Positions 260 to 32,538 of a stretch of 32,538 nucleotides of DNA are shown piece by piece. This stretch comes from Verrucomicrobiota bacterium. GTDB taxonomy: Bacteria > Verrucomicrobiota > Verrucomicrobiia > Limisphaerales > AV2. The stretch lies in contig QHNT01000057.1 in assembly GCA_003218515.1 (NCBI GenBank), forward strand, positions 1 through 32,538. The letters run 5' to 3'. Below the pieces are notes generated by a model that ran no database searches, was not told where the DNA came from, and was given only the letters and a program-made list of their open reading frames with translations. The stretch's first letter is position 1. The number at the start of each line of letters is the position of its first letter. A program made the translations under genes and the position numbers.

Positions 260-318
260 GTTTGGAAGTTGTGTCGGGACGCACCGGACGCCGATCTGAG
301 ATTCTTTAGTTAGAGTGA

Positions 319-417
319 TTGCCAAAAGAAATTTCCGAAATGGTGGGCGACGACCTGGGGGGTCGTCGCGGCAAACCGGCAGGTTTGCCCCACCATTTCG
401 GAAATTTCTTTTGGCAA
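319..417. repeat. Long palindrome forming a three-way junction
   Basis: Two perfectly complementary 29-base arms (319-347 and 389-417) enclose two further perfect hairpins. The first has an 8-bp stem (CGACGACC 348-355 with GGTCGTCG 361-368, loop TGGGG). The second has a 7-bp stem (GCAAACC 371-377 with GGTTTGC 382-388). Folded as DNA or RNA this is a Y-shaped three-way junction. It sits between the terminator of the partial gene and the 3' end of the leftward octahaem gene, so it could mark the 3' end of that transcript. No T tract follows on the minus strand, so simple intrinsic termination is not obvious. Confidence 0.85.
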
Positions 418-428
418 CCTGTATAGGT

Positions 429-25349: not shown

Positions 25350-25422
25350 GGTGGGGCGAGACTCTGTCGAGCCCTAACTTCTATCCATTGGAGTTCAGGG
25401 CTCGACAGAGTCCCGCCCCACC
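25350..25422. repeat. Long palindrome with GGTGGGGCG ends
   Basis: Two 26-base arms (25350-25375 and 25397-25422) are complementary except at one position and enclose a 21-base centre, in which AACT and AGTT can pair further. It is the first of three palindromic elements that fill the 513-base gap between the LOG gene and ileS. No coding region is supported in that gap. Confidence 0.85.
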
Positions 25423-25476
25423 GTTCATGGTTCCGATGCGCGCCAAAAATGGCGTCGAGGCTACCCCCAAATGCGG

Positions 25477-25562
25477 CAGTGTCTTAGTTTGGTTGTAGTG
25501 TCGAGCCTCTGGCTCGATGAATCGGCGCACAACGCCGACGCTACACGCAAATCAGGACACTA
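25477..25562. mobile_element. MITE-like element, copy 1, with flanking direct repeat
   Basis: The outer arms GTGTCTTAGTTTG (25479-25491) and CAAATCAGGACAC (25548-25560) are imperfectly complementary. They enclose a closing stem TGTAG/CTACA and two perfect hairpins (TCGAGCC/GGCTCGA at 25501-25517 and TCGGCG/CGCCGA at 25522-25538). The same ends recur at 28635-28722 around a different core. The element is flanked by CCCCAAATGCGG (25465-25476) and CCCCAAAGGCGG (25563-25574), a 12-base direct repeat with one mismatch, which looks like a target duplication. No transposase lies within it. Confidence 0.72.
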
Positions 25563-25594
25563 CCCCAAAGGCGGGTAGTGGTACATTTTGCGAT

Positions 25595-25721
25595 GGTAGG
25601 GACGCCGCGCTGCGGCGTCACCGGCCGCGTCCAGCGGACGGAATCTCGTTATCCATTGCTTTGCTTCCATTCCGTTGCGCCGCTGAACGCGGCGCGGTCA
25701 TCGCAGCGCGATGACCCTACC
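25595..25721. repeat. Multi-hairpin cloverleaf repeat upstream of ileS
   Basis: A 6-bp closing stem (GGTAGG 25595-25600 with CCTACC 25716-25721) encloses five hairpins. They are GACGCCGC/GCGGCGTC (25601-25619), CCGC/GCGG (25625-25637), CGGAAT/ATTCCG (25639-25674), GCGCCGC/GCGGCGC (25677-25695) and GTCATCGC/GCGATGAC (25697-25715). It lies about 85 bases before the ileS start, so it may be transcribed as leader. I see no T-box features (no specifier loop or T-box sequence). Confidence 0.75.
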
Positions 25722-25806
25722 TTGAAATTGCAAACTGTAACACCACCCCAAAGGCCGCTCCGTTGACACTCTTCAACACCGCTGATACCGTGCGCCTTCC
25801 TTGAGA

Positions 25807-28559
25807 ATGGCAATGGACTACAAAGACACCTTGAACCTGCCGCGGACGGACTTCCCGATGAAGGCCGACCTTGTCACCCGCGAACCACAGCAGATCGAGA
25901 AGTGGCAGAAGGAAAAACTCTACGAGAAAATCCAGGTCGCACGCGACGGTGCCGAAAAATTTGTCCTGCACGATGGCCCGCCCTTCGCCAATGGCGACGT
26001 CCACATCGGCAACGCGCTTAACAAGATTCTCAAAGACATCGTCGTCAAATACAAGTCCCTGCGCGGTTACAGCGCGCCGTATGTGCCGGGCTGGGATTGC
26101 CACGGCCTGCCCATCGAATTCAAGGTTTCCCAGGAAATGCGCAAACCGGGCGGGGCAGGAGTCTCGCCTGTGGATGTGGACGCCGCCACAGTTCGCAAGG
26201 CCTGCGACGCCTACGCCCGCAAATACATCGACATTCAACGCGAGCAGTTCAAGCGCCTCGGCGTGTTTGGCGATTGGGAGAATCCCTACCTCACGCTGAA
26301 CAAGGAATACGAGGCGGACGAACTTCGATTGTTCGCCGACATCGTCGAGAAAGGATTTGTCTATCGCGGGAAGAAACCGGTTTACTGGAGCATTCCGTGC
26401 CGCACCGCGCTCGCAGAGGCCGAGGTGGAATACAAAGACCACGTCAGCCAGAGCATCTACGTGAGATTTCCGGTCATCGGCCAGCCCGGCACCTCGATCC
26501 TCATCTGGACGACAACACCCTGGACGCTTCCGGCCAACCTGGCAGTTGCTTACAACTCAACTTTCAGCTATGCGCAAGCCCGCGTCGGCGGAGAAACGTT
26601 CCTCGTTTCCACCTTGCTCCTGCCGACGGTCGCGGAGAAATGCCGCTGGGACAGCTACGAAATCGTCCGCAGCCTGAACGCCGATAACCTCCGGCAAATC
26701 GAGTTTCAACACCCGTTCTGCGCGCGCACCGGAAAATTGTTTGCCGGCGACAGCTTCGTGGAAAACACCACCGGCACCGGATTCGTGCATGTCGCGCCAG
26801 GGCACGGTTTGGAGGACTACCAACTCGGCCTGCAAAACGGCCTTCCGATTTATTCGCCGGTGGACGACGACGGCCGCTTCGCCTACTCGAACGAATTGCC
26901 GCTCGAACAGCAGATGCCGAAGGAACTGATCGGCAAGGCGATTCTGGAAAAGCACGGCAGGAGCGAAGCCAACGAAGCGGTGCTGCAACTCCTGCGTGAA
27001 CGCAAGGCGCTGGTGCATCGGGAGGATTACACCCACAGCTATCCGCATTGTTGGCGCAGCAAGACGCCGATCATTTTCCGCCCGCGGTCAAGACACGGCC
27101 CGACTGGTGCATTTCGCGCCAGCGCACGTGGGGCGTGCCCATCCCGTTCTTCTACGACGCGCAGAGCCATCCTTTGCCTGATCCAACCAAGGATTCAAGG
27201 GTGGCGGCGCGAATCGTCCGCAATACAGCCGACCTCGTTGAAAAGCACGGGTCGAACGTCTGGTTCGAGAAGTCGTGCGCCGAGTTGTGGGCTTCCGTGA
27301 AGCCAGTGGATTGGAACGGCACGGAACCCGTCGCCAAGTCAAACGACACCCTGGATGTCTGGATTGATTCCGGTTCGTCGTCGCGCTCGGTGCTCATGCG
27401 TCGTCCGGATCTTTTTCATCAACCATCAACCATCAACCATCAACCGGCCAATTGGCAGGCCGATATGTATCTGGAAGGAAGCGACCAGCACCGCGGCTGG
27501 TTTCAGTCCTCACTGCTGATCTCGCTCGCCGGAAACGGCGCCGCGCCTTACAAGACCGTGCTCACGCACGGTTTCATGGTGGACGCCGATCGCGAAAAGA
27601 TTTCCAAGAGCAAACAGGGCCAGGGTGTTTACGAGAAACCGCAGACGGCTGACGCTTACGTGAAGAAATGGGGCGCGGACATTGTGCGACTGTGGGTCGC
27701 TTCGCAGGACTTCCGCAACGACATCATCGTGAGCCAGGAACGGATCAACAAAGTCGCCGAGACCTATCGCGTCATCCGCAACGCCCTGCGTTACCAGCTC
27801 TCGAACCTTTACGACTTCGATCCAGCGACGCACAGCGTGCCGGACGAAAAGCTCACTGGCCTCGACCGCTGGATTCTTGGCGAGTACTCCAAACTCGAAG
27901 CCGAAGTCATCAAGGCTTACGACGCTTACGAATTTCATGTCGTTTACCAACAAGTCAGCCAGTTTGCGGCAGTGGAGCTTTCGGCGATCTACCATGACGT
28001 GATCAAGGATCGACTCTACACCGATCCGGCTAACTCGCATCGCCGCCGCTCAACGCAAACAGCGTTGCACAGGCTGGTGTCCGGACTTTGCCAGATGCTC
28101 GCGCCGATTCTTTCGTTCACGGCGGATGAAGCGTGGGAGTTGATTCCCGATAAACCGACGCAGTCCGTGCATGAAACGACGTGGCTGCGTTACTCTCTGG
28201 TTCTACCTGAAGGCGAATTGCTGGCGTGGCAGCAAATGCTGGCGATCCGCGATGGAGCTTTGGCCGAGTTGGAGAAAGCTCGCCAGAGCAAACTCATCGG
28301 CAAAGCACTTGAAGCAAGAACTGAATTGATTGGTGGCATGATTGGAGTGCTTGTCAGTCAAAAGGACTTTGAGTCACTGAGGGAACTATTGAACGTTTCA
28401 CAGATCTCAGCGCAGCCCAGCGACGAGTCCTTGAAAGTCCGCGTTGCCAAAGCGGACGGTCAGAAATGCGCACGCTGCTGGCATTGGGAAACGGACGTCG
28501 GCTCGCACAAGGAGCATCCGACAATCTGCGGCCGTTGCGTGGCGGCGGTTTCTTCGTAG
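25807..28559 (+). pseudogene. ileS: Isoleucyl-tRNA synthetase, disrupted by deletion and frameshift
   Basis: Class I isoleucyl-tRNA synthetase charges tRNA(Ile). The first part reads in one frame from ATG 25807 ([12 protein letters not shown]) with the HIGH-type motif HIGN (66-69), up to KTPIIFR near 27081. From about 27085 the rest reads in the -1 frame: [27 protein letters not shown], the signature loop KISKSKQ (codons from 27597), the anticodon-binding part, and a C-terminal zinc site (CARC...CGRC). About 40-45 residues that normally lie between IIFR and RPDWCISR are missing. The frame change fits loss of 3n+1 bases. IleRS is essential, so either the assembly is wrong here or another ileS exists. 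A 13-residue insertion made of heptamer repeats (27417-27444) is also present. The stop codon lies inside a palindrome arm. Confidence 0.9.
27417..27444 (+). repeat. Four tandem CATCAAC heptamers inside ileS
   Basis: Four exact copies of CATCAAC run head to tail and are translated as part of FHQPSTINHQPAN. In other IleRS proteins the sequence goes almost directly from the RPEL-like segment to the conserved ADLYLEGSDQHRGW motif, so this is a small family-atypical insertion in the catalytic domain. Confidence 0.85.
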
Positions 28560-28757
28560 CGCAGGCATCCTGCCTGTCAGTTGCGAGGCTTCCGAGCCTC
28601 GCTTTTCATTTCGCGGCAAGGATGCCGCGCAACCGGTAGTGTCCTAGTTTGGTGGCGGCGGTGCTGCGGCACCGCCTTGCGCCGCGGCAGCGGCGCACCC
28701 ACCTGAAGCAAATCAGGACACTGCCGCGCAACCTGCACGCTGGAAGCGTGCGCTACG
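28555..28757. repeat. Composite palindromic repeat beginning at the ileS stop codon
   Basis: Arms CGTAGCGCA (28555-28563) and TGCGCTACG (28749-28757) are fully complementary and enclose perfect hairpins CAGGCA/TGCCTG (28562-28576), GCGAGGCT/AGCCTCGC (28583-28602) and GCGGCA/TGCCGC (28613-28628). The ileS stop TAG is bases 28557-28559 of the left arm. A second element (28635-28722) is nested within it. This accounts for the 222-base gap before the DUF2182 gene, in which I see no gene. Confidence 0.75.
28635..28722. mobile_element. MITE-like element, copy 2, with 11-base flanking direct repeat
   Basis: The ends GGTAGTGTCCTAGTTTGGT (28635-28653) and GCAAATCAGGACACT (28708-28722) are nearly identical to those of copy 1. 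The core differs: GGTGG/CCACC closes hairpins GGCGGTGC/GCACCGCC (28657-28676) and GCGCCGC/GCGGCGC (28679-28696). The exact 11-mer GCCGCGCAACC stands on both sides (28624-28634 and 28723-28733), as expected for a target-site duplication. It interrupts the older composite palindrome 28555-28757. No open frame is present. Confidence 0.8.
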
Positions 28758-31479: not shown

Positions 31480-32271
31480 TCAGTGGACCGACTCGCACCC
31501 GGTGAAAACAATTTCCGTGTCGCGCGCGCCCTTGCATTTGCCGCGGAAGAGAATCGTCTGCCCCGCCTGCAGCAAGGTGACCTCTTTGTTCTCGGCGGGT
31601 TTTCCGACAAGCGTCTGCCCGCGGTGCGTGGTGAAAACGGTCTTGTAATCGTTCGGGTAGTCAAAGACCGCAATGACCCGAGCGAACCGGTCCGAGGATT
31701 CCAGGAGGACATCGTATTTGCGGACGAACATCCTAGGCTCGAACCGTTCGATCACGCCTTTGACGTGGAAGTTTTTTTTGTCATAGCGCCGATCGGCGGC
31801 GGTCGGATCGTTTTTGAATTGTTGCACCAACTCGGCGGCATCCACAATATCGTCCGGCTTCAACGGCGGCAGCTCGACAACTGACCTTCCACGTTCTTCA
31901 CCGGTGGTGCGCCGCGCGCTGAGGCCTCCTGACTTTTCGGCTTGCGGCTGCTTCCCGGCTTCGGGCTGTCCATTGTCCTCTTTCAATCTGGCGGCTTCAG
32001 CTTCCGCGCGCGCCAGGTCCCGCTTCAGCTTCTGGATTTCCTCCTCTTTCCGTTTTCGCGCTTCGGCCTGGAAACGCTTTCGAGTCGCCGTTGGCAGATC
32101 TTTCCAGTCAATCCAGTTCGTTCCACGGTCATGTTTGACAACGAGCCCGGCCGGCTCGAACCTGATGACCTCCGCGTTCTTGAAAACCTTACCCTCAGTC
32201 GTCGTGATGTCTTCAGCTGTGGCGAAGGTGGCGCCGGCGACCAGAAGAACAGAAAGGATGACATGGCGCAT
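31480..32271 (-). CDS. Exported protein with coiled coil and tRNA_anti-like OB-fold
   Basis: The 263-residue product begins with a signal peptide (MRHVILSVLLVAGATFATA). A small beta-rich segment follows (TTEGKVFKNAEVIRFEPAGL), then a charged coiled coil (about residues 68-98) and a variable linker. The C-terminal part (about 143-262) resembles the tRNA_anti-like OB-fold: AAELVQQFKNDPTAADRRYD, KGVIERFE, and a final GQTILFRGKCKG strand. Despite the name, such exported OB-folds are not known to bind tRNA, and the ligand is unknown. It is apparently monocistronic and lies between palindromic repeats. Confidence 0.78.
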   Translation of the reverse strand: MRHVILSVLLVAGATFATAEDITTTEGKVFKNAEVIRFEPAGLVVKHDRGTNWIDWKDLPTATRKRFQAEARKRKEEEIQKLKRDLARAEAEAARLKEDNGQPEAGKQPQAEKSGGLSARRTTGEERGRSVVELPPLKPDDIVDAAELVQQFKNDPTAADRRYDKKNFHVKGVIERFEPRMFVRKYDVLLESSDRFARVIAVFDYPNDYKTVFTTHRGQTLVGKPAENKEVTLLQAGQTILFRGKCKGARDTEIVFTGCESVH

Positions 32272-32307
32272 AAAAACGGCGGTGGTGTCTTAATCTCAAG
32301 TCTAAAC

Positions 32308-32360
32308 TGTAGCGGCGCTTCTATGAGCGCCGTTTTCGGCGGTCACAGACCGCCGCTACA
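32308..32360. repeat. Two-hairpin cloverleaf repeat (TGTAG...CTACA)
   Basis: The closing stem TGTAG (32308-32312)/CTACA (32356-32360) encloses two perfect 7-bp hairpins: CGGCGCT/AGCGCCG (32313-32332) and CGGCGGT/ACCGCCG (32337-32355), joined by TTTT. The layout is the same as the core of the element at 25477-25562 although the hairpin sequences differ. It lies just upstream of the exported OB-fold gene. The remaining 178 bases to the window end show no supported gene. Confidence 0.82.
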
Positions 32361-32538
32361 GCCAAATTAATTCACTGCCAAAACGGCTGGCTGCTTGACA
32401 GTAGGTGAACTTCGCCTACCGAGTTGAGCCTTGTTTGGCCCTCAGCGTCAAGCGCTCAGCAGCGTGCGGGGTGGCGCAGTTCTCTCTCCATGAACCTTGG
32501 ATGGTCCCAATGCATGCGAAAAACGAAAGGGGGCTTTC

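Follow-up and report, generated by a model that had tools for sequence, protein, structure and literature searches.

How can repeats keep one architecture while their sequences differ? This question is raised by the window analyzed here, the whole 32,538-nucleotide stretch of DNA from a Verrucomicrobiota bacterium, in which five elements—among them our focus at 32308–32360—each fold into a closing stem around hairpins of dissimilar sequence. An earlier note had taken them for one structural family whose fold, rather than sequence, is what is recognized. Our analysis argues instead that they are very probably composite miniature transposons, in which IS1-type (families A and B) or TA-type (family C) terminal repeats surround REP dimers, and that families A and B were inserted in trans by a DDE transposase. 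The fixed architecture goes together with variable sequence because several independent REP families, with a few loops shared among them, sit inside a few types of terminal repeat. The host genome (5.89 Mb, 490 contigs, 87% complete) contains the window as its contig C486.

The fold itself was confirmed for all five elements, in an excess far above chance. In our fold check, a closing stem enclosing two GC-rich hairpins was recovered at 319–417, 25494–25545, 28651–28703, and 32308–32360, while 25595–25721 adopts a more complex, multi-stem version. The hairpins, previously described as perfect, are not all so: the second hairpin of 25494–25545 is weak, and the first one of 32308–32360 has a loop of 6 nt. 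For four of the five elements, the coordinates in the earlier note comprise only the inner core. Longer inverted repeats bound the full units (311–425, 25475–25564, 25573–25747, 28635–28725, and 32281–32379), 8-bp target duplications bound four of these five units, and GTAG or GTGG tags lie on both sides of every core. The elements are built of two layers, a REP-dimer core and the terminal inverted repeats of a miniature transposon (MITE), and belong with the REP class of mobile DNA hairpins. What had been read as a single structural family resolves into three terminal-repeat types around at least four REP cores, with the following features in the window:

32281..32379, + strand: focus element, a 99-bp non-autonomous IS1-type MITE (family A) whose REP-dimer core is GTAG-tagged, with terminal inverted repeats (GGTGGTGTCTTAATCT left, GGCAGTGAATTAATTTG right, the latter read inward) and target duplication; its core type recurs between similar repeats in other loci and genomes
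32273..32280, + strand: left 8-bp target duplication of the focus element, AAAACGGC
32380..32387, + strand: right 8-bp target duplication of the focus element, AAAACGGC, identical to the left one
32309..32359, + strand: focus REP dimer, a GTAG-hairpin (loop region TCTATG) followed by an inverted hairpin-CTAC (loop TGT, − strand)
28635..28725, + strand: 91-bp family-A MITE with a GTGG REP-dimer core (loops TGCG and TGCC)
28627–28634 and 28726–28733: perfect 8-bp target duplication of the preceding MITE, GCGCAACC
28556..28756, + strand: older bare REP dimer of the TCC-loop class, GTAGCGCAGGCATCC...GGAAGCGTGCGCTAC, split by the MITE at 28635–28725
25475..25564, + strand: 90-bp family-A MITE with a GTAG REP-dimer core (TCGAGCC-TCT and TCGGCG stems)
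25467–25474 and 25565–25572: target duplication of the preceding MITE, CCAAATGC and CCAAAGGC, with one mismatch
25573..25747, + strand: MITE of about 174 bp with family-B ends (GGTRGTGKTACAKTTTGC) and a GTAG core of GCT-loop hairpins
25565–25572 and 25748–25755: perfect 8-bp target duplication of the preceding MITE, CCAAAGGC
311..425, + strand: 115-bp family-C MITE with a GTGG REP-dimer core; ends TAGAGTGATTGCCAAAAG... and TATACAGGTTGCCAAAAG..., with TA at each terminus
343..393, + strand: REP-dimer core of the family-C MITE (fold and tag pairing)

The family-B MITE at 25573–25747 inserted at the target duplication of the 25475–25564 element. Together with its target duplication, the focus MITE (32273–32379) lies on the upstream side of a minus-strand gene (31480–32271), starting only 2 bp from its start codon, and the leader or ribosome-binding region of this gene has therefore probably been replaced or displaced. 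Two further observations concern the neighboring sequence. An isoleucyl-tRNA synthetase-like gene (25801–28559) is split into overlapping open reading frames (25801–27300 and 27048–28559), which suggests a frameshift or an assembly error near 27.0–27.3 kb. Positions 25350–25422 hold another inverted repeat, assigned to none of families A–C: GGTGGGGCGAGACTCTGTCGAGCCCT, with almost perfect 26-bp arms and a loop that itself contains a small hairpin.

The outer layer points to how the units were inserted. Family-A MITEs carry the terminal inverted repeat GGYAGTGTCYTRATTTG at both ends, the ends of family B are related, and the repeats bounding the units that we ascribe to an IS1-type transposase read GGYAGTGTCCTRATTTG. 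IS1-family transposons generate target duplications of 8–9 bp. Among 26 family-A copies with a GTGG core, collected from the host genome and its relatives, the flanks matched at 8/8 positions in 11 and at ≥7/8 in 19. Copies with an identical core in named records (isolates AV2 and AV4) gave 8/8 in 11/23 and ≥7/8 in 19/23, against a mode of 2/8 for shuffled flank pairs of these same 23 copies; the two sets may overlap, as some records possibly come from a genome already counted among the relatives. For the insertion at 28635, the rejoined flanks aligned with an uninterrupted paralogue (L045:11754–11854), which thus constitutes a paralogous empty site. Target duplications and empty site together argue that the units move by a DDE-type reaction. 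On the window copies, the combination of 8-bp duplications and IS1-type terminal repeats is the signature of a DDE transposase rather than of a RAYT.

Candidate partner elements were found in related genera, where three longer elements (L241, 2154 bp; L245, 3187 bp; L246, 3277 bp) have family-A ends, matching or near-matching 8-bp flanks, and proteins of ~280 aa. The proteins of L241 and L245 matched PF03400 (DDE_Tnp_IS1) above cut-off; against the NCBIfam IS1 model NF033558 they gave E-values of 4e-20 (L241) and 2e-19 (L245) and fell short of the equivalog cut-off. Within the same genus, L285 encodes an IS1-family transposase between GGTAGTGCCTTAATTT ends with a perfect target duplication, an end variant also present on two focus-type MITEs (L310 and L329). 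The closest IS1-type element in the host genome itself is L287 (terminal repeats 18/18, target duplication 8/8), whose ends are identical to those of family A at about 14/17 positions; none with the exact window terminal repeats was found in this 87% complete assembly of 490 contigs. IS1595, suggested as a partner by the 8-bp duplication, was rejected: the order's IS1595 loci have 8-bp duplications but other ends, and PF12762 had no match in the host genome. The same IS1-type ends, with matching or partly matching flanks, also enclose a DNA methyltransferase (PF01555) and neighbors without a transposase in L242 (G076:C447) and L243 (G080:C2), and L245 (G091:C206) carries a GmrSD-type restriction gene beside its IS1-type transposase; the contents of these three loci are apparent defense-gene cargo.

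To what extent do the two layers depend on each other? An order-wide search in which the core was not required returned nine family-A MITEs with exact ends, eight of them with a GT[AG]G head-to-head core as read by eye; one of the nine, L304, represents the focus-type core in another genome. Cores between family-A ends vary by genus and include GGAG-tagged (L255, L256, L259) and non-REP ones (L257, L260). The layers are thus not obligately linked, since MITEs with the same ends may hold non-REP cores (L257 and L260 and, for family C, L163–L165). One further locus (L062:18402–18452 plus flanks) is a hybrid MITE: around a GTGG core, its left end resembles family B (GGTAGTGGTACAGTTTG) and its right end is that of family A.

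Family C, to which the unit at 311–425 belongs, comprises 15 near-identical paired copies in the genome, nearly all with TA at both ends. On the strength of these TA...TA ends, its mobilizer is probably an IS630/mariner-like transposase. The family-C arm had no match in a scan of viral contigs. Ends of this family also surround other cores, some of them longer palindromes of the CCCTCTCCCC type and some with several hairpins of a different kind. In the window, a CCCTCACCC/CCCTCTCCCC palindromic repeat at 1972–2159 lies in frame within a cytochrome-like open reading frame (429–2594), where it is read as ...TPSLSPSEGERVA..., and a palindrome resembling it forms the core of other family-C-ended MITEs (L163–L165, L169).

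For the inner layer, we sampled 671 kb of the genome without regard to the elements and ranked the tetranucleotides 5′ of the 1,004 maximal perfect hairpins found there. GTAG came out on top (38 occurrences vs. 4.0 expected, 9.5-fold), and GTGG was likewise raised (25 vs. 12.7 expected), so that the excess of such hairpins over expectation, on which the earlier claim depended, was borne out and chance excluded. Pairs of tagged hairpins were almost uniformly oriented: across 963 kb, a set that includes 20 stretches picked for carrying family A, tags lay outside in 37 pairs (a few of them overlapping readings of one place), with a single tail-to-tail and a single same-orientation pair. This tags-outside arrangement is the head-to-head dimer architecture of REPs (REPIN/BIME). 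In the unbiased sample, REP dimers divide about equally between bare ones and those within such MITEs or what remains of them. The focus-type core follows the pattern GTAGCGGCG-NTCTRTGAN-CGCCG; it recurs between similar terminal repeats at five loci (L013, L069, L304, L310, L329), and as single REPs without recognizable terminal repeats at two (L044, L072). Exact copies of the 28651-type core are present in Verrucomicrobia bacterium MAGs.

The earlier note had stated that no RAYT/IS200-like (TnpA) enzyme is encoded in the window, and this holds: of 11 Y1 (RAYT/IS200) transposase matches in the genome, none falls on the window contig. Similar elements lie beside such genes, with GTAG- or GGAG-tagged hairpins in the flanks of several Y1 loci. 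A further locus, L284 from the same genus, scored above the cut-off of NCBIfam NF047646 as a REP-associated tyrosine transposase, and its protein contains the motifs D-H-V-H and Y-V-W-R-N-P. The REPs in its flanks, GTAGTGTCGAGCC-TGC-GGCTCGA and ATCGGCGCATAGCGCCGACGCTAC, are those of the window core 25495–25544, which is thus directly tied to a RAYT. For the focus core, our search turned up no RAYT with this core's REP variant in its flanks, the match at L284 being to the sister core at 25495 and to the loop class; the focus core has the TRT loop class in common with L284 and with a RAYT-like gene of the host genome (L008). Another Y1/RAYT-like gene, L010 (G000:C217), has GGAG-tagged CGCGGACA hairpins in both flanks, a variant of the GTAG tag. 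The earlier interpretation is thus right about the REP class and the Y1 genes elsewhere in the genome, but the window copies themselves bear DDE-type duplications and IS1-type ends.

Which features of the hairpins stay constant? When we fixed the tag GT[AG]G and the loop TC[CT] without selecting for pairing, 14/199 23-mers paired at 7–8 of 8 positions (0.1 expected) and represented nine distinct stems, compared with zero or one paired 23-mer for each of seven control combinations with one tag or loop changed. Relative to untagged hairpins, tagged ones concentrate on a few loops (TCC/TCT, GCT, TGCG/TGCC, and GTCA), each with several stems. Alignments further showed that families A and C share the loops of their GTGG cores, TGCG in one hairpin and TGCC (other strand) in its partner, with unrelated stems and unrelated terminal repeats; the window copy of family C has a loop one base longer than this pattern. 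The notion that fold rather than sequence is recognized is hence incomplete: pairing is kept only between families, and the letters of tag and loop are fixed while stems vary. From this constancy we infer that a RAYT-type enzyme may read tag, loop, and pairing and tolerate the letters of the stem, in agreement with a report that tag and loop both matter for RAYT activity (PMC8266576). As stems drift within families while tag, loop, and pairing persist across them, RAYT-like hairpin recognition is partly supported.

The same data bear on other readings of the locus. Were the elements one structural family, with the fold alone selected and stems evolving through compensatory substitution, one would point to the many different, fully paired stems that share a tag and loop between families, and to the single Y1/RAYT loci L276 and L277, whose flanking REPs differ in their stems. 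Within families, however, double changes that keep pairing—the hallmark implied by the earlier claim—amounted to 0/39 pairs in family C and 1/38 in family A, not above shuffles, with family A's one double-changed pair located in the outer repeat; the refuting outcome named in the earlier note, drift of the arms with no compensatory change, thus holds within families. No series of one-sided stem changes repaired by the partner was seen, and the terminal repeats sort into three groups, of which two or more are unrelated; we consider this reading unlikely. By their substitutions, family copies drift after insertion like neutral copies, and this also weighs against RNA elements whose fold is under selection, be they terminators, regulatory hairpins, or hairpins for mRNA stability. 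The mostly intergenic location, the presence of G-U pairs, the fact that the hairpins would form in RNA too, and the published hypothesis that REPs act on transcripts (PMC3733652) would all suit such a function. Yet the window had no Rfam match at the gathering threshold, compensatory change within families was lacking, and target duplications identify the copies as products of transposition, making an RNA element the most improbable of the explanations.

Plain REPINs, moved by a RAYT only and landing in target palindromes that were already there and now serve as outer stems, would fit the RAYT loci with cognate REPs and the bare dimers devoid of outer stems in the same genome (L060, L045, L071, L097). 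Against this stand the 8-bp duplications, which lie outside the outer stem, and the transposase-bearing elements sharing the ends, which already contradict the idea for families A and B. Moreover, an empty outer palindrome, with 0–30 nt between exact-ended repeats, occurred in none of 320 genomes. We therefore regard plain REPINs as very unlikely.

The composite miniature transposon that we favor would have arisen through two activities. In the outer layer, units of families A and B (GGYAGTGTCYTRATTTG and GGTRGTGKTACAKTTTGC ends) would be inserted in trans by a DDE transposase of the IS1 family, giving rise to the 8-bp duplications; an IS1-type enzyme would thus have mobilized the window copies. 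In the inner layer, the two inverted GTAG/GTGG-tagged hairpins are of the kind that RAYT enzymes recognize in single-stranded form, and a RAYT may originally have placed or made the REP dimer. As the likeliest history, REP dimers would have come to lie between IS1-type ends through capture or insertion, after which the IS1-type enzyme would have spread the composite. More speculatively, these 90–175-bp units could represent a recurrent dual-system class with DDE (IS1-type) ends adjoining RAYT hairpins, assembled repeatedly with different REP families, in which the RAYT reads tag and loop and tolerates almost any paired stem—a generalization that we put forward tentatively, holding it to be possible rather than probable.

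If so composed, the elements link two transposition systems that are usually studied apart, and offer a concrete reason for the REP dimers within longer palindromes noted in Anabaena and Halothiobacillus in 2013. They also provide a natural series, with constant tag and loop and many stems, for probing how RAYTs read hairpins. Finally, they call for caution, as the structural likeness of repeats need not equal selection on the fold: here, independent mobile families follow one plan.

Relative to the IS1 family, the similarities are the 8-bp duplication, GGT-type ends, and a transposase matching PF03400 and NF033558; unlike IS1, the partner transposase is longer (~280 aa), and the window units lack a transposase and span 90–175 bp. 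REP/REPIN systems with their RAYT/TnpA-REP enzymes are known for GTAG-tagged head-to-head dimers (Nunvar 2010, PMC2817692; Bertels and Rainey 2011, PMC3116915; Di Nocera 2013, PMC3733652); the last of these papers describes GTAG and GTGG tags in the verrucomicrobium Opitutus terrae, whose genome has several REP families. Our elements resemble these systems in their GTAG/GTGG tag, stems of 6–9 bp with short loops, head-to-head pairing, the presence of several families in one genome, and a RAYT flanked by the same REPs, but differ in that the window dimers are enclosed by DDE-type terminal repeats and target duplications. Among bacterial MITEs, NEMIS, RUP, Nezha, ERIC, and MITEAba12 (PMC3733652, PMC6382973) are likewise short, non-coding, and structured with terminal repeats; in contrast to them, the core here is a recognizable REP dimer, interchangeable among same-ended units. 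REP dimers in IS1-type MITEs are thus an uncommon combination of two known kinds, of which we found no description in the open literature, incompletely covered as it was. REP dimers nested in palindromes nevertheless have a precedent from 2013, reported without a mechanism in the sections considered (PMC3733652): the GTAG-15 dimers of Anabaena variabilis lie in long palindromes, and the CGTC-1 dimers of Halothiobacillus neapolitanus in 41-bp ones. As in our elements, the REP dimer is central in a longer palindrome that, in this account, was never found empty; a terminal-repeat transposon, target duplication, and transposase are described here, but not in that account for those palindromes.
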